DNA from: Pseudooceanicola marinus
GTDB lineage: Bacteria; Pseudomonadota; Alphaproteobacteria; Rhodobacterales; Rhodobacteraceae
Reading direction: 5' to 3'
Length of the DNA stretch: 64,000 bases
Assembly (NCBI RefSeq): GCF_002786295.1
Contig: NZ_PGTC01000010.1
Coordinates: 310,001-374,000 of the forward strand
The stretch's first letter is position 1; each line of letters opens with the position of its first letter. The translations under genes were made by a program, and so were the position numbers. Under the pieces are notes generated by a model. It ran no database searches and was not told the DNA's origin. It was given only the letters and a program-made list of their open reading frames with translations. This document shows, piece after piece, positions 4,067 to 59,095 of the stretch.

Positions 4067-6825
4067 GCGCGCGCCCTTTCCTGACCGGCGGCGATCGCCT
4101 CACGCAGCTTCGCCTCCAGCGCCTTCTGTTTCGAGGCGGAGAAGAGTTTCAGCCCGAACATGTCCTTCACGTAGAAGGTGTCGACGACCTGCTCGCCGTA
4201 GGTGGCGATCACGGCCGAGGAGATCTGCACGTTGGCCGTCGCCAGCGTCCGCGTCAGGTCATAGAGCAGCCCGACACGGTCGCGGGTGTCGACCTCGATG
4301 ATCGTGTAGATCTCGGACCCCTCGTTGTCGAAGGCGACGGAGGTGGCGACCTTGAAGGCACGCTCGCGTTTCTTGATCCGGTCGCGGTCCACCATCGCCT
4401 CGCGGGCGACCAGTTCGCCGCGCAGGATCTTGTGGATCATCTGGGTCAGCCGCGGCAGGCGCGAGGCCTCGTAGGGGCTGCCCTCGGCATCCTGCACCCA
4501 GAAGGCGGCGGTGGCATAGCCGTCGACCGTCGTGTAGGTTCGCGCGTCCACCACGTTGGCGCCGACCAGGGCCAGCGCGCCGGACAGCCGGGCGAAGATG
4601 CCCGGGTGATCGGCCATGGCGAAAAGCGCGCGGGTCGCGTCCCGGTCCTCGTCCGCATGCAGGTCGATGCGGATCTCGTCCACCGGCAGATCGCGCAGCA
4701 TCTCGGCAAAGGCGGCCTGGGTCGCGGTCTGCAACCCCTGCCAGTAGGGCGGGTAATGGCGCGCCAGCTCGCGGTCGACGTCCTCCTGGCTCCAGCCGTC
4801 CAGCTTCTCCACCAGCATCCGCTGGGCTTCCTGGCCACGGTGGGTGCGGTTGAGTTCTTCCAACCCGGTTTCCAGGGCGCGGCGGGTCTGGTGATAGAGG
4901 GTGCGCAGCAGCTGCGCCTTCCAGTTGTTCCAGGTGCCGGGGCCGACGCCGCGGATGTCGCAGACGGTCAGCACCGTCAGCAGGTCCAGCCGGTCGCGCG
5001 AGCGTACGGCCTTGGCGAAATCGCGCACCGTGCGCGGGTCGGCCAAGTCGCGTTTCTGCGCCATGTCCGACATCAGCAGGTGATAGCGCACCAGCCATTC
5101 CACGGTGTCGCATTCCTCGGGCGTCAACCCGAGGCGTGGGGCGACCTTGCGGGCGATCTTGGCGCCCAGCACCGCGTGATCCTCCTCGCGGCCCTTGCCG
5201 ATGTCATGCAGCAGCAGCGCCACGTAAAGGACGCGGCGGTTCACCCCTTCGGCCAGGATGGTGGAGGCGACAGGCAGTTCCTCCTCCAGATCGCCATGTT
5301 CGATCAGCGCCAGGTGGCGGATACATTGGATGGTGTGTTCGTCCACCGTGTAGTGGTGGTACATGTTGAACTGCATCATCGCGACGATCTGCCCGAACTC
5401 GGGCAGGAAGGTGCCCAGCAGGCCCAGTTCGTTCATCCGGCGCAGGGCGCGTTCAGGGTTGCCGTGCTTCAGGAGGGTCCCGAGGAAGATCTTCGCCGCC
5501 TCCGGGTCCTCGCGCATCTGGTCGTCGATCCTGTCGAGGTTCGCGTGCACCATCCGCATCGCATCGGCATGCAGCAGCATCCCCGTGCGCAGCCCCTCGT
5601 CGAAAAGACGCAGCAGGTTCAGCTTGTCCTGCAGGAAATGCGCCTCGTCCTTCACTGCCAGGCGGCCGTGCACCACCTTGTAGTCCGAGCCGATCTTGGG
5701 CTTGCGGCGGAACACCCGTTCCAGCATCGCGTCGCCCTTGACGTTCTCGGCCTCCAGCTGGGTCAGGAAGATGCGGGTCAACTCGCCGACCGAGTTGGCG
5801 TGGCGGAAGTAGGCCTGCATGAAATGCTCGACCCCGCGGCGCCCGCCCTTGTCCTTGTATCCCATGCGCTCGGCCACCTGGACCTGCATGTCGAAGGTCA
5901 GCTGGTCCTGCGGCCGTCCGGCCAGAAGGTGTAGGTGACAGCGCACCGCCCAGAGGAAATCCTCGGCCTTGTGGAAGGTGGCATATTCGTCGCGGGTGAA
6001 GACGCCCAGGCGGACCAGCTCGGCCACCGACTGCACCCCATGGACGTATTTGCCGATCCAGTAGAGGGATTGCAGATCGCGCAGCCCGCCCTTGCCTTCT
6101 TTCACGTTGGGCTCGACCACGTAGCGCTGGCCGCCCTGTTTCTGGTGGCGGTTGAACCGCTCTTCCAGCTTGGCCTCGATGAAGTCCTTCTCGGTGCCCT
6201 TGAAGAGATCCGACCACAGCTTTTCGTTCAGCTGATCCACCAGCGGCGCGTCGCCCGCCAGGAACCGGGTTTCCATCAGCGAGGTGCGGATGGTGTAGTC
6301 CTCGCCGCCCAGCTTCAGGCATTCGCGGATGGTGCGGCTGGCGTGGCCGACCTTCAGGTGCAGGTCCCACATGACATAGAGCATCGCCTCGATCAGCGCC
6401 TCCAGCGCGGGGGTGATGCGGGACTTGGTCAGGAACAGCAGATCGACGTCGGAGAAGGGGGCCATCTCGCCCCGGCCATAGCCGCCGACGGCGCAGATGG
6501 CGAAATCGCCCAGGGCCTCTCGCTGGTCCTCGGTCAGGCTGGCGCGGCCCTGCTCCAGCACCTCGCGGATGATGCAATCGGTGACGAAGGTATAGGCGCG
6601 GGTGGTCTTGCGGGCGGCGAAGGGATCGGCGGCGAAGGCTTCGGCGATCCGCTCCATCCCTTCGGTCCGGGCGCTGTTCAGTCGGGCGACGACCGCGGCG
6701 CGGGCCCTGGCCGGATCGCCCTCGTCGCGGCGAATGGCCTCCAACTCGCGCCGCAGGGCGGCAGGGTCCAGAATGTCCTCAGCCGGACGAATGAGATCGT
6801 CCGGCAGCGAAAGCGAAATGTCCAT
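4063..6825 (-). CDS. glnD: Bifunctional [protein-PII] uridylyltransferase / uridylyl-removing enzyme
   Basis: A 920-residue GlnD. The nucleotidyltransferase motif GGYGRGEMAPFSDVD lies at 114-128 with metal-binding Asp126 and Asp128. The HD phosphohydrolase motif LLLHDIGKG is at 537-545 (His540, Asp541). Two ACT domains follow near the C terminus (DHPGIFARLSGAL; DRVGLLYDLTRTL) and sense glutamine. The enzyme uridylylates PII at low glutamine and removes the group when glutamine is high, setting nitrogen control. All active-site elements look intact. ATG start at 6825; the stop overlaps murJ by 4 nt. Confidence 0.96.
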   Translation of the reverse strand: MDISLSLPDDLIRPAEDILDPAALRRELEAIRRDEGDPARARAAVVARLNSARTEGMERIAEAFAADPFAARKTTRAYTFVTDCIIREVLEQGRASLTEDQREALGDFAICAVGGYGRGEMAPFSDVDLLFLTKSRITPALEALIEAMLYVMWDLHLKVGHASRTIRECLKLGGEDYTIRTSLMETRFLAGDAPLVDQLNEKLWSDLFKGTEKDFIEAKLEERFNRHQKQGGQRYVVEPNVKEGKGGLRDLQSLYWIGKYVHGVQSVAELVRLGVFTRDEYATFHKAEDFLWAVRCHLHLLAGRPQDQLTFDMQVQVAERMGYKDKGGRRGVEHFMQAYFRHANSVGELTRIFLTQLEAENVKGDAMLERVFRRKPKIGSDYKVVHGRLAVKDEAHFLQDKLNLLRLFDEGLRTGMLLHADAMRMVHANLDRIDDQMREDPEAAKIFLGTLLKHGNPERALRRMNELGLLGTFLPEFGQIVAMMQFNMYHHYTVDEHTIQCIRHLALIEHGDLEEELPVASTILAEGVNRRVLYVALLLHDIGKGREEDHAVLGAKIARKVAPRLGLTPEECDTVEWLVRYHLLMSDMAQKRDLADPRTVRDFAKAVRSRDRLDLLTVLTVCDIRGVGPGTWNNWKAQLLRTLYHQTRRALETGLEELNRTHRGQEAQRMLVEKLDGWSQEDVDRELARHYPPYWQGLQTATQAAFAEMLRDLPVDEIRIDLHADEDRDATRALFAMADHPGIFARLSGALALVGANVVDARTYTTVDGYATAAFWVQDAEGSPYEASRLPRLTQMIHKILRGELVAREAMVDRDRIKKRERAFKVATSVAFDNEGSEIYTIIEVDTRDRVGLLYDLTRTLATANVQISSAVIATYGEQVVDTFYVKDMFGLKLFSASKQKALEAKLREAIAAGQERARA

Positions 6826-54689: not shown

Positions 54690-55058
54690 TTGCGCAACGC
54701 GGCATTGGTACTGGGATTGATCGGCGGGCTGTTTGGCCTGCTCGTGGGCTTTGTCGGCTATGGCTACACCGAGGCGATCGAGGCCTACGGCGAGGTTGAG
54801 GGCCTGTTCGAGCAGGTGACCAATGTGCAGGCGGTGCGCCTGGCGGGCCTGCTGTCGCCGATCCTGGCGATCGCGGGCGCCGGCATGGCGAAGGTCCGCG
54901 CGCTCTGGGGCGGGGTCCTTCTGCTGGCCGGCGCCCTGGGGTTCTACCTGGGCTTCGGGGTGACGGTCTTCACCATCTTCCCGATCGCCTTCATCGGGAT
55001 CGCGGCGCTGCTAGCACTGGCGGCGGGGAAACCGGACGAGCCTCAGGCGCATTTCTGA
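54690..55058 (+). CDS. Small four-segment membrane protein, unknown
   Basis: A 122-residue hydrophobic protein with about four membrane segments (AALVLGLIGGLFGLLVGFVGY; LAGLLSPILAIAGAGMAKV; GGVLLLAGALGFYLGFGV; IFPIAFIGIAALLALAAG). It starts with TTG 54690, preceded by AAGGAGA. No family recognised. Its last 68 nt overlap the end of the convergent doxX-like gene. Confidence 0.7.
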   Translation: MRNAALVLGLIGGLFGLLVGFVGYGYTEAIEAYGEVEGLFEQVTNVQAVRLAGLLSPILAIAGAGMAKVRALWGGVLLLAGALGFYLGFGVTVFTIFPIAFIGIAALLALAAGKPDEPQAHF

Positions 55059-55572
55059 ACAGGATCTGATCGACGGACAGCACGCCCGCGCCCTTCACCA
55101 GCAGCACCAGCAGGGTGAAGGTCCAGAAGGCGCGCTGATCCAGGATCAGCCCATCGGGGTGCCTGTCGAACCATGCGCCCAGGGTCTCGGCATGTTCGAT
55201 CCCGCCGTGGCCGTAGAGGTCCGTCAGGCTTTGCACGGCGATGAAGCCGCTCATGCCGAGGGCGGCGACCCGCGTCAGCAGGCCGATCACGATCATCAGC
55301 GGCAGGACAAATTCGGCAATCGTGCCGGCGGTGACCACGGCCCAGTGCCAGGGCCCCAGGGCGGAGAGGTTGTAGCTCGCGGCCTCCATCGCGCGGGGGA
55401 AGATCTGCGCGTAGGCGCCCAGCGACGGCTGGAAGAGCCCTAGGGGGCCATCCCCCAGCTTGGTCAGGCCCGATGCCCAGAAGTAGGGCAGCAGCACGGC
55501 GGCAAAGGTGAAACGCGCCAGCAGCGGCAGCAGCGGGTCGAGGCGGGTCAGGGGCGCGGTCGGATCGGTCAT
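54991..55572 (-). CDS. bufD: DoxX family membrane protein of the bufferin operon
   Basis: A 193-residue DoxX-type protein with four membrane segments (FTFAAVLLPYFWASGLTKLG; WAVVTAGTIAEFVLPLMIVIGL; RVAALGMSGFIAVQSLTDLYG; AFWTFTLLVLLVKGAGVLSVD). DoxX-like proteins are regular last members of bufferin / gig-type operons; their role there is unknown. It overlaps the DUF2063 gene by ATGA and, at its 3' end, the convergent membrane-protein gene by 68 nt. Confidence 0.85.
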   Translation of the reverse strand: MTDPTAPLTRLDPLLPLLARFTFAAVLLPYFWASGLTKLGDGPLGLFQPSLGAYAQIFPRAMEAASYNLSALGPWHWAVVTAGTIAEFVLPLMIVIGLLTRVAALGMSGFIAVQSLTDLYGHGGIEHAETLGAWFDRHPDGLILDQRAFWTFTLLVLLVKGAGVLSVDQILFRNAPEARPVSPPPVLAAPRSR

Positions 55573-56336
55573 CGGGGCAACTCCATGTCGGTCAGGGCGC
55601 CGCCTTGCAGCAGCAATCCCAGGATGGCGGGCAGGTCGGGGGCGGGGGTCTCGGCGCTGGCGGCGTCGGCCGCCTCCGCCGTGGGGGCGCCGCGCGCCAG
55701 GGCCTGCAGGAAGACGGCGCCGCCCGGCGGCAGCAGGTAGACCTGCGGGTCGAAGGCGGGGCGCGCGATCAGCAGGTCCTCTGCCCGGGCCTGCGGCGGC
55801 GGGCCGTCGTGGTGGGCCAGCTGCCAGATCTGGTAGAGCGGCCAGGGCGAGCGCAGCAGCCGCAGCGCCGGCGCCAGCGTCAGCCGGGCCCCGGCAAGGG
55901 CCTCGGGCGGTAGCTCCGACAGGCGCGCGGGATCCAGCGGTGTCGCGTCGGCGGCGTGGTAGGCGGCGCGCAGGGCCAGATCCAGCCGCGCCACGTCCGG
56001 CAGATACTCCAGGTGCGCCAGCGGGGCGAAGTCATCCAGAAACGCGGGCAGGGCCGCGCCATAGCGGAACATCAGGGGTGAGGACGGCGGATGCGCCCGC
56101 AGGAAGGGCGCGGCGATGGCTCGCAGCGCCTCCTCGCCCAGCAGGGCACGCAGGGTGGGGAAGCCCTCCAGCACGGCGTCGGTCAGGCCGACGGCGACAT
56201 TGTTGCGATAGACGGCAAAGCGCCGCCCGGCGGGCCCGCCGTGGCCATCGCCCAGCCCCTCGGGCACGGCGGCGTCGGGGCGCAGCAGGGCCTCGCGGAA
56301 GGTCGCCTGCGCCACGGGAGAGGCGCCGGAGCTCAT
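55569..56336 (-). CDS. bufC: DUF2063 family partner protein of the MNIO enzyme
   Basis: A 255-residue protein with the DUF2063 N-terminal domain ([55 protein letters not shown]). Such proteins recruit the precursor peptide for the DUF692 enzyme (compare BufC, HvfC, MbnC). The C-terminal half resembles a winged module in relatives. ATG 56336 overlaps the bufB stop by 4 nt, implying the complex is made in fixed ratio. Confidence 0.88.
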
Positions 56337-57184
56337 GCCGGGATCCTTTCCAGTGCGCTGGCGGCCCGAGAGGCCTCGGCGGCCAGCACGGGCCAGTCGG
56401 GCACGTCGGTGTCCCATTCGATCAGCAGCGGGCGCGGCCCGGACCGGGCCAGGACGTGATCCAGCAGGGACCAGACCGGATCGGCCACCTGCCGCCCATG
56501 GCTGTCGATCAGCAGCGGGCGGCCCGCGTCGTCGGCATCCTCGTCATGGCCGCCAAGGTGAATTTCACCCACTTTCTCCAGCGGGAAGGCCTCGACATAG
56601 GCGCGTGGGTCCAGCCCGAGGTTCACGGCCGAGACGAAGACATTGTTCACATCCAGCAGCAGGCCACAGCCCGTCCGCCGGCTGACCTCGGCCAGGAACT
56701 CGGTCTCCGCCATCTCGCTTTCCTTGAAGGCCAGGTAGGACGACGGGTTCTCCAGCAGCATCGGGCGGCCCAGCACCTCCTGCACCTGGTCGATGTGATT
56801 GGACACGCGGGTCAGGGTCGCGGCGGTGTAGGGCAGCGGCAGCAGGTCGTTGAAAAAGGCGCTCTCGTGGGTCGACCAGGCCAGATGTTCGGAGAAGCTC
56901 GCCGGGTGCAGCCAGTCGCAGAGCGCCCGCAGCCGCGCCAGGTGGGCAGGGTCCAGCGGTCCGTCTCCACCGATGGACAGGCCGACGCCGTGGACGGAGA
57001 TGGGGAACCGCTCGGCCAGGTGGCGCAGCATGGCAATCGGTCGGCCCCCGGCGCCCATGTAGTTCTCGGCGTGGATCTCCAGCCAGGCGACGGGGGCGGA
57101 ATCGTCCAGGAGGTCGAGGTAGTGCTGCGGCTTGAAGCCGACGCCGGGCAGGGGCGGCAGAGGGGAGCGTGTCTGGTCCAGCAT
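56333..57184 (-). CDS. bufB: DUF692 multinuclear iron oxidative enzyme (MNIO), bufferin maturase
   Basis: A 283-residue TIM-barrel enzyme. Likely iron ligands are His65 ([11 protein letters not shown]), His100 (FSEHLAWS), Glu145 (LLENPSSY), Asp178 (LLLDVNN), His209 and His213 ([10 protein letters not shown]), His229 (DSHGRQV) and Glu256 (LLIEWD). Relatives oxidise cysteines of a short peptide, for example to thio-oxazoles, to make metal-binding products. The substrate is the DUF2282 peptide encoded 125 nt upstream. Relatives: MbnB, HvfB, BufB. Confidence 0.92.
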
Positions 57185-57274
57185 GGGGCGGGTGTCCTTG
57201 GTCCGGGGGCCGCTTGCGAAAGCGTCGAGGCTCGCGAAAGGGGCCCGAAGTGGCCGAGATGGCGGAAAGGGGGA

Positions 57275-57299
57275 GGCGCGCCCGAACCCCGGGCGCGCC
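57275..57299 (-). promoter_or_regulatory. Strong hairpin between bufA and bufB
   Basis: GGCGCGCCC (57275-57283) pairs perfectly with GGGCGCGCC (57291-57299) with a 7-nt loop. In the operon direction it comes 10 nt after the bufA stop and is followed by TCCCCCTTTCC. It may attenuate or protect, giving more peptide than enzyme. Confidence 0.75.
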
Positions 57300-57309
57300 G
57301 GCAGCCGGA

Positions 57310-57624
57310 TCAGCTGTCCATCGGCAGGTCACGCTCCAGCGGCTCCAGCGAGCCCATGCGCGCGGTGCCGTCGGCCATGGCGGGCAGCTCGATCATGGCG
57401 CATTTGCCGGCGTCGACCAGGGCCCAGGCGTTGCCCTGATAGTCGACCTTCGAGGTGCCGGCGCAGGTGGTGCCGGGGCCGGCCGCGCAGTCGTTTTCGC
57501 CGGCCAGGGACACGCCGAAGCATTTCTCCTGCGCCATCTCGTCGGCACTGGCGGAGGTGGCATGGGCGGCGAGGGCGGTGGCGAAGGCGCCGGCGATGGC
57601 GGCGGACTTGAGGATGGTGGACAT
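57310..57624 (-). CDS. bufA: DUF2282 bufferin precursor peptide
   Basis: A 104-residue small exported peptide: signal sequence ([18 protein letters not shown]), then [19 protein letters not shown] and [14 protein letters not shown], with four cysteines at 35, 46, 54 and 75. This is the DUF2282 pattern (EKCxG...NDC...C.G.SK). Relatives are Cys-modified RiPPs that bind copper or other thiophilic metals in the periplasm. ATG 57624 has GGGAGAG upstream. First gene of the operon; its promoter matches the ECF motif at 57682-57708. Confidence 0.92.
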
Positions 57625-57681
57625 GGGTCTCTCCCTAAGAGGTTTGCGATCAGGCGCCGATCTGGCGTCCGTGCCCTGCCA

Positions 57682-57708
57682 TTCGCGCCCCGCGGCCCTG
57701 TCGTTACA
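57682..57708 (-). promoter_or_regulatory. Predicted ECF promoter for the bufferin operon
   Basis: On the minus strand TGTAACG (57708-57702), a 16-nt spacer and CGAA (57685-57682). The leader to bufA would be about 50 nt. The same motif with the same spacing faces the sigma gene. Confidence 0.78.
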
Positions 57709-57753
57709 CCTGTCACGAACGAGTGATGGGGATCGGCAAAATTTTCGACCCGC

Positions 57754-57780
57754 TGTAACGTTCGCCGATCCGTCTGCGAA
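57754..57780 (+). promoter_or_regulatory. Predicted autoregulatory ECF promoter
   Basis: TGTAACG (57754-57760), a 16-nt spacer and CGAA (57777-57780), only 11 nt before the sigma-factor ATG. It is the same motif as at 57682-57708, on the other strand. Confidence 0.78.
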
Positions 57781-57791
57781 TGGAGAGACGT

Positions 57792-58448
57792 ATGACAGAC
57801 CGGAACCAGCTTTGGGGCGACCTGCTCCGCCGGGGGACCCGTGGCGATGCCGCGGCCTACGGGCGTTTCCTGACGGAGGCCGTGCCGGTTCTGCGCAACA
57901 TCGCCCGTGCCCGCCTGCCCGGCGGCAATGCCGAGGAGCTGGAGGACGTGGTGCAGGAGGTGCTGATGGCCGTCCATGCCAAGCGGCACACATGGCGCGA
58001 AGGCGATCCGGTGACGCCCTGGCTTTATGCCATCGCGCGCTACAAATGCGCCGATGCGGCGCGCCGGCGCCTCGGGCGGGGCGGGCAGGGGGCCGATGTG
58101 CCCATCGACGACCTGGCCGAGATCCTGCCCGACGAGGCGGGCGGAGAGATCACCGCGGCCCGCGACCTGGGTCGCCTGCTGGACCGGATCGAGCCGCGCG
58201 CGGCGGAGATCGTGCGGGGCCTGGGGATCCAGGGTGAAAGCGCGGCGGAGGTCGGTGCGCGTCTCGGCATGACCGAGGGCGCGGTGCGCGTGGCCTATCA
58301 TCGGGCCATGCAGAAGTTGCGGGACATGGCAGAGGATGACATGGCCGCAGGGCACGCGGTCGGGGAAGTGGAGCGCCCCGGCCAGATCAAAGGCGCCGGG
58401 GATGAGCCCGGCCCGACAGGGAGACGAGCAGAGGCAGCAGACGGATAA
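57792..58448 (+). CDS. ECF sigma factor, SigF-like, of the bufferin locus
   Basis: A 218-residue ECF sigma. Region 2 shows [18 protein letters not shown] and [17 protein letters not shown]; region 4 shows [31 protein letters not shown]. The final 30 residues are a low-complexity tail. The adjacent NrsF gene and bufferin operon match the SigF system of Caulobacter, which answers copper, gold and chromate-type stress. ATG 57792 has GGAGAG upstream; an ATG at 57780 is in frame but lies on the promoter's -10 element. The mRNA would be nearly leaderless. Confidence 0.9.
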
Positions 58449-58453
58449 AACGG

Positions 58454-59095
58454 ATGAATACGGACGACCTAATCGCTCAACTGGCGCAGGACCCCGCGCC
58501 GGCGCCCTCGGCCCGTGTCGAGGCGCGGCTCTGGCCCTGGCTGACCGGGGGGCTGGCGCTGACCGCCGCCGCCTTCGCGCTGCTGCTTGGCCCGCGCCCC
58601 GACCTGGCGGCGGCGCTGGCGCAGCCCGTGGTGGCCGCCAAGACGCTGTTGCCGCTGCTTCTGGCGGCCCTGGCCCTGCCGCTAGCGCTGCGGGCGGTGC
58701 GCCCCGGCGCGCGCCCCGGCTGGCTCGCGCGGGCCCTATGGGCGCTGCCGCTGGCGGTCGTGGCGCTGATTGTCCTGGCCTGGCTGGGCACGCCAGCGTC
58801 GGAGCGGATGCGACTGTTCATCGGCCATTCGATCCATGTCTGCCTGCCGGCCATCACCCTGCTGTCGCTTCCGCCGCTGGCTGGGCTGATCGCCGCGCTG
58901 AAACGGGGCGCCCCGGTCCATCCGACGGGCGCCGGGGCGCTGGCCGGGTTGGCCGCGGCTGGCCTGGCGACGGCGCTTTACTCGACCTTCTGCATCGAGG
59001 ACAGCCCGCTGTTCTACGGCGTGTGGTATTCGCTCGGCATCGGCATCGCCACGGGCATAGGCGCGCTGGCGGGGCGGCGGTGGTTGCGCTGGTGA
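58454..59095 (+). CDS. nrsF: NrsF-type membrane anti-sigma factor (DUF1109)
   Basis: A 213-residue protein with six membrane segments and a short cytosolic N terminus (MNTDDLIAQLAQDPAPAPS), the expected sigma-binding part. Two cysteines sit where the family keeps them: Cys130 (HVCLPAITLLSLPPL) and Cys180 (STFCIEDSPLFYGVWYSLG). In the Caulobacter NrsF, two cysteines at nearly the same positions are needed to sense metals. It lies 5 nt after the sigma gene, in the same operon. Confidence 0.92.
   Translation: MNTDDLIAQLAQDPAPAPSARVEARLWPWLTGGLALTAAAFALLLGPRPDLAAALAQPVVAAKTLLPLLLAALALPLALRAVRPGARPGWLARALWALPLAVVALIVLAWLGTPASERMRLFIGHSIHVCLPAITLLSLPPLAGLIAALKRGAPVHPTGAGALAGLAAAGLATALYSTFCIEDSPLFYGVWYSLGIGIATGIGALAGRRWLRW

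Follow-up and report, generated by a model that had tools for sequence, protein, structure and literature searches.

A bufferin-type operon of Pseudooceanicola marinus with divergent sigma-F-type promoter sites and a conserved candidate regulator site

The operon and its genes

In this study, we analysed a stretch of 64,000 nucleotides from Pseudooceanicola marinus (the whole stretch is called the window below) and followed up six genes at its positions 54991-59095, where a predicted bufferin operon lies divergent from the genes of a sigma factor and an NrsF-type anti-sigma factor. From sequence comparison, we believe with high confidence that the locus encodes a Buf1-type bufferin with sigma-F/NrsF sensing, and that a second, palindrome-bound regulator acts at the bufA promoter. 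The gene set itself is not new, because Caulobacter and the Buf1 literature already describe it, and the novelty of the operon core is low. The finding is set apart by its regulatory region, which seemingly holds a private regulon of two promoters and a conserved candidate regulator site. New here are a divergent pair of predicted sigma-F sites, a conserved palindrome, and a tandem element that appears to replace the sigma-F site in relatives.

Four genes lie on the minus strand, as the earlier note had proposed from the letters of the window, and the family searches suggested there as a check placed all six proteins above their Pfam cut-offs. The gene bufA (57310..57624) encodes the DUF2282 (Buf1) precursor of 104 amino acids (PF10048, 79.9 bits, cut-off 22.4). 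Four cysteines and a signal-peptide-like hydrophobic N-terminus (about residues 1-27) were seen by eye in its translation, and no NCBIfam model matched it. The gene bufB (56333..57184) encodes the MNIO (DUF692) maturase (PF05114, 350.6 bits, cut-off 25), which also passes the BufB model NF050167 (379.2 bits, cut-off 310) and whose sequence relatives with solved structures are 3bww, 8hci and MbnB entries. The gene bufC (55569..56345) encodes the DUF2063 partner (PME-type 1; PF09836, 81.8 bits, cut-off 27.2), for which the sequence search returned no relative of solved structure, and the final operon gene (54991..55572) encodes a DoxX-family membrane protein (PF07681, 31.9 bits, cut-off 23.6). 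All frames of the six-gene unit are intact, and the overlaps between the MNIO and partner frames (13 bases) and between partner and doxX (4 bases) resemble those of a coupled operon. With the MNIO protein above the BufB cut-off and the six families equal to the Caulobacter set, the proposal of a complete bufferin-type operon was borne out. Among the named rows of the MNIO tree, Pseudooceanicola antarcticus and Oceanicola sp. S124 stand closest to it. A second bufferin locus was ruled out, since the genome (4.5 Mb, 30 contigs) holds a single DUF2282 gene and a single MNIO gene.

On the plus strand, sigF (57792..58448) encodes an extracytoplasmic function (ECF) sigma factor, scored on its longer form (PF04542, 43.1 bits, cut-off 24; PF04545, 33.9 bits), and nrsF (58454..59095) encodes the anti-sigma factor (PF06532, 187.8 bits, cut-off 26.8), which fails the NCBIfam model NF042994 (89.9 bits, cut-off 300). 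The divergent pair with two conserved NrsF cysteines was thus found as predicted: the protein has exactly two, Cys130 and Cys180, each kept in 39 of the 40 distinct matches that cover both. Place and strand were right for every gene, but the sigF start probably was not. The start in the open reading frame list, 57780, is an ATG that overlaps the predicted -10 element, and we therefore prefer the alternative start at 57792, the frame of which was checked. This more probable start would leave the transcript only a very short leader.

Sigma-F-type promoter sites and a conserved palindrome

A pattern search located two sigma-F-type promoter sites, TGTAACG-N16-CGAA, one for bufA (57682..57708, minus strand) and one for sigF-nrsF (57754..57780, plus strand), similar in sequence to the Caulobacter site GTAACC-N16-CGAA. 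Both read on into TGG (TGTAACG-N16-CGAATGG). When the genome was searched with spacers of 15 to 17 bases, seven places were found, and the 16-base spacer occurred at just the two divergent sites. The other five have 17-base spacers, four of them being one repeated sequence, and they are near chance level, since a control pattern matched three times. The strict pattern revealed no third N16 site in the genome, and as far as it shows, the sigma-F regulon here appears to consist of the bufA and sigF transcripts alone. A chance origin of the sites was rejected, the rates per region over 8400 mononucleotide shuffles being 0.0033 for the sigma-F site, 0.0039 for the palindrome and 0.0000 for the tandem element described below.

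The palindrome TCAC-N6-GTGA (57713..57726, no strand assigned), a candidate operator at a conserved position, is separated by 4 bp from the bufA -35 element, on its upstream side. Its sequence, TCACTNGTTCGTGA, has one exact and one single-mismatch occurrence in the genome. Of 22 genomes of the genus, that of P. marinus included, 18 contain both bufA and NrsF; the palindrome is present in every one of these 18, and 17 of them also have a strict sigma site on the bufA side. The palindrome starts 18 nt upstream of this site in 15 of the 17 and 29 nt upstream in two (L012 and L015), an 11-bp step of about one helical turn. Because the step occurs on the bufA side alone, the gap to the sigF-side site being 27 bp in both loci as in L013 and the window, it fits a protein bound on one face of the helix. 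We believe that the palindrome is most likely the binding site of a dimeric protein, which would act on RNA polymerase at bufA. The earlier picture of a compact, intact unit holds for the frames and the gene order, but the conserved palindrome suggests that the unit may depend in part on a regulator from outside.

The remaining genomes of the genus differ. G011 (99% complete) and G013 (77%) have bufA but no NrsF above the cut-off, and both carry the tandem element and no sigma site. G021 (66% complete) has neither bufA nor NrsF, and G016 has NrsF but no bufA match. In G016 (L151, about 4685-5760), the sigF and MNIO matches are both cut short and share about 20 bases, as might result from a deletion or from a fault in the assembly.

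A tandem element in relatives without sigF

A search with the MNIO protein gave 80 named loci; nrsF-sigF lies between thrS and bufA in 8 of them and is absent in 72. The genes thrS, bufA, MNIO, partner and doxX follow in this order in 67 of the 72; four have no thrS match in the sequence read around the locus, and L095 is the single sigF-less locus without a doxX match, doxX standing after the partner gene in 79 of all 80 relatives. On the basis of this synteny, we regard the operon as sitting at one conserved place, with the sigma pair as an optional part.

The sigF-less loci carry a tandem element with the core nACG-N4-CGTGA-N2-CACG-N4-CGTGA, made up of two nAC-N6-GTGA copies at a distance of 15 bp. 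In the sigF-bearing loci, a single copy, TCAC-N6-GTGA, is kept by the bufA-side sigma site. A 36-bp matrix of the element matched 70 of the 71 readable sigF-less loci with scores of 19.6-48.9, while the highest score among 1420 shuffles was 7.3. The match ends 39 to 123 nt before the bufA start that was chosen. Scores below zero were obtained for the window and for all eight sigF-bearing loci.

Across the family, one genome from each of 120 genera was surveyed, and DUF2282 was found in 85 of these genomes and NrsF in 18. Plain patterns were used to scan 84 bufA regions, some of the genera being shared with the training of the tandem matrix. By the strict patterns, the tandem was present in 44 genera, the sigma-F site in 10, both in none and neither in 30. 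The loci with an adjacent sigF or nrsF match (n = 12) had the tandem in 0, the palindrome in 6 and the strict sigma-F site in 8; those without one (n = 72) had the tandem in 44 and the strict sigma-F site in 2. NrsF was found in all 10 genomes with a sigma-F site, and in the two cases without adjacency its distance to bufA is 2.9 kb (G071) and 1.7 kb (G122).

A group of 15 in the MNIO tree (support 97/79) unites 13 sigF-bearing rows from the Pseudooceanicola group with two sigF-less, tandem-bearing rows nested among them; the support is 99/91 for the subgroup with G011 and 85/80 for the pair with G013. Three further sigF-bearing rows fall outside this group. The nested sigF-less rows and the outlying sigF-bearing rows argue that the switch between the tandem and sigma-F layouts probably happened more than once. 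The change count is affected at L003, because this row is labelled pair-less although NrsF and bufA are about 1 kb apart in its genome.

A strict tandem search of the 120 genomes gave 26 places in 25 genomes, against 1 of 120 for the reversed control. A bufA match adjoins 21 of the 26 places. The other five (L118, L127, L129, L142 and L143) have no neighbour in common, and an attempt to name the regulator from these other targets gave no result. Taken together, the palindrome and the tandem suggest a second regulator that is largely bufferin-specific. With two mismatches allowed, 97 of the 120 genomes had matches, and one such string recurs in four genomes among the matches listed. At L142 (1501-1527), the tandem-type match is accompanied by extra CGTCACAAGCGCG-like repeats and is followed after 57 nt by an msrA-like gene (1585 onward; PF01625, 162.5 bits), the product of which has a signal-peptide-like sequence; this case from a single relative hints at a link to periplasmic oxidation. 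No title among the literature matches listed dealt with such a TCAC-N6-GTGA or tandem element.

Comparison with known systems

The six families of Caulobacter CC3252-CC3257 (nrsF, sigF, Buf1, MNIO, DUF2063 and DoxX) are identical to those in the window. Kohler et al. (2012) reported that sigF-CC3252 and CC3254-CC3257 are driven by GTAACC-N16-CGAA (PMC3511200), which differs by one base from GTAACG-N16-CGAA here. In the same report, NrsF, the family of which is named DUF1109 there and PF06532 here, is a negative regulator whose Cys131 and Cys181 are required for low basal expression; the cysteines here, 130 and 180, are one residue apart from these. The Caulobacter operon was reported to be induced by chromate and cadmium, and auto-regulation of sigF-nrsF was not strong under dichromate (PMC3511200). 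Another report describes the regulon as copper-induced, with growth in the presence of copper strongly impaired by sigF inactivation and the sensitivity of the mutant to chromate and cadmium unchanged (PMC8224329). It names a second bufferin operon and msrPQ as further sigma-F targets, whereas the strict pattern gave no third N16 site here. The gold-induced genes (gig) of Cupriavidus are described as the same cluster, with Au, Ag and Cu as inducers (PMC8224329).

Thousands of Buf1 and Buf2 bufferins have been collected, and sigma factor and NrsF genes are reported in Buf1 clusters (PMC12452194). HvfABC (oxazolin) of Haemophilus likewise combines an MNIO enzyme with a DUF2063-type partner. Its precursor is reported to have EGKCG repeats (PMC12452194, PMC13097082), while bufA of the window has no EGKCG. 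Of the known-family links drawn in the earlier note, the Caulobacter bufferin branch was upheld and the HvfABC branch was not. The equivalog cut-offs of NCBIfam were failed by the MNIO protein for HvfB (234.6 against 360 bits), by the partner for HvfC (39.2 against 142) and by DoxX for HvfX (22.3 against 80, a weak likeness), so that HvfABC membership was rejected in favour of the BufB/DUF2282 branch. Methanobactin serves in copper scavenging. Its MbnABC system has the MNIO enzyme superfamily (MbnB) in common with the window, but its precursor is reported to be without a Sec signal peptide and its partner protein differs (PMC12452194).

Proposed mechanism and alternative explanations

By analogy with the homologues, periplasmic metal or thiol stress would act on the paired cysteines of NrsF and release sigma-F, which would transcribe both its own operon, as a feedback through the sigF promoter, and bufA-bufB-bufC-doxX. 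BufB together with BufC may then convert the two middle cysteines of BufA to thiooxazoles; BufA would be exported by Sec, form a disulphide from its outer cysteines and bind excess copper. The exported cysteine-rich peptide thus probably serves to take up copper in excess. We infer its copper binding and cysteine chemistry, as well as the induction, from homologues. From its conservation, TCAC-N6-GTGA upstream of the bufA -35 element may hold a second DNA-binding protein that tunes the promoter. In the sigma-F-less relatives, the same protein on the doubled site would probably drive the operon from an ordinary promoter, and it is suggested that this protein can act alone because the doubled form occurs where sigma-F is absent. 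For the Roseobacter group as a whole, we consider it somewhat probable that bufferin operons use a largely dedicated TCAC-N6-GTGA factor, either alone (doubled site) or as a co-regulator with sigma-F (single site), and that the two layouts have been swapped beside thrS, even within one genus.

Several points weigh against these readings. The tandem matrix was trained on the same loci that it scores, and the shuffles for the matrix, the survey and the hairpin reported below preserved single-base composition only. The Fisher tests of the survey (p = 5e-5 for the tandem, 5e-7 for the sigma-F site and 3e-4 for mutual exclusion) take genera as independent, which they are not. The 30 of 84 loci that have neither element make the tandem common, not universal. 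Outside the genus, the palindrome is less widespread: in the genus-level survey it is present in 6 of the 12 sigF/nrsF-adjacent loci, and 4 of the 12 are without a strict sigma-F site. Seven loci from other families (L003-L005, L010, L022, L023 and L029), the sole sample from beyond the family, showed no tandem, and TCAC-N6-GTGA was found among them in L005 only. The window holds two TCAC-N6-GTGA where 0.62 are expected, and since at least two occur in 14 of 100 shuffles, the palindrome is notable by its conservation and position alone. Because the DUF2282 family shows little conservation around its cysteines (PMC13097082), the exact modification of BufA is assumed. For fontiphorin, the same paper reports -4 Da for each modified Cys and an absorbance near 302 nm.

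It could also be that the system acts mainly against oxidants such as hypochlorite and peroxide, or against another metal, and not copper. An NrsF-family anti-sigma system is reported to govern hypochlorite resistance in Brucella (PMC8315932), sigma-F of Caulobacter controls MsrPQ and responds to chromate and cadmium, and one tandem match stands before the msrA-like gene of L142. We nevertheless regard this as rather unlikely: bufferins are reported to bind copper (PMC12452194), the Caulobacter sigF mutant is sensitive to copper with unaltered sensitivity to chromate and cadmium (PMC8224329), and the strict pattern gave no further N16 sigma-F site in the genome. Somewhat less likely still is that the palindrome and the tandem belong to a promoter of another kind, which a different ECF sigma factor would read in sigF-less relatives, or that they act as RNA structure. 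In favour of this, the tandem takes over from the sigma-F site in a comparable position, and none of the 84 genera has both. However, the tandem is built of two copies of one palindrome and not of a -35 and a -10 element, a single palindrome stands beside a sigma-F-type site in 17 of the 18 genomes of the genus, and the 11-bp step leaves the sigF-side distance unaltered. That the operon is a relic yielding an unmodified exported peptide seems very improbable, for although a bufA match is missing in G016 of the same genus and its sigF and MNIO matches are cut short, here the frames are intact, the overlaps are kept, and the promoter sites and both NrsF cysteines are conserved.

We thus retain the sigma-F/NrsF-controlled bufferin with a second regulator. 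Bufferins are widespread, and their control is described in the reports cited here through sigma-F and NrsF; 72 of the 84 genus-level operons have no adjacent sigF or nrsF match, so their switch may lie beyond that description. The short element common to both layouts is a direct handle on the regulator, and strains of one genus with and without sigF-nrsF offer a natural comparison for the gain or loss of a sigma factor at an existing promoter.

BufA tail, hairpin and neighbouring gene

The C-terminal tail of BufA (57322-57354, minus strand) lies beyond the Pfam domain. A GSLEPLxRDLP-like tail was found in 76 of 84 proteins of the family, but in just 3 of 30 proteins that belong to the class and not to this family; the class-level loci (L154-L179) served for this comparison only and were excluded from that of the DNA element. 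One idea is that the tail serves as a recognition or docking site for the partner protein.

Between bufA and bufB lies a perfect hairpin of 10 bp (57275..57299, minus strand), a possible expression-ratio element. In this gap, 38 of 75 relatives have perfect stems of at least 8 bp, which arose in 0.9% of mononucleotide shuffles, and the hairpin may give a higher ratio of precursor to enzyme.

Downstream, a convergent gene (54690-55058) shares 68 bases with doxX at the 3' end of the latter. Its DUF4064 match (20.8 bits) is below the cut-off of 32.1, and a match to this gene is present in 68 of the 80 named loci.

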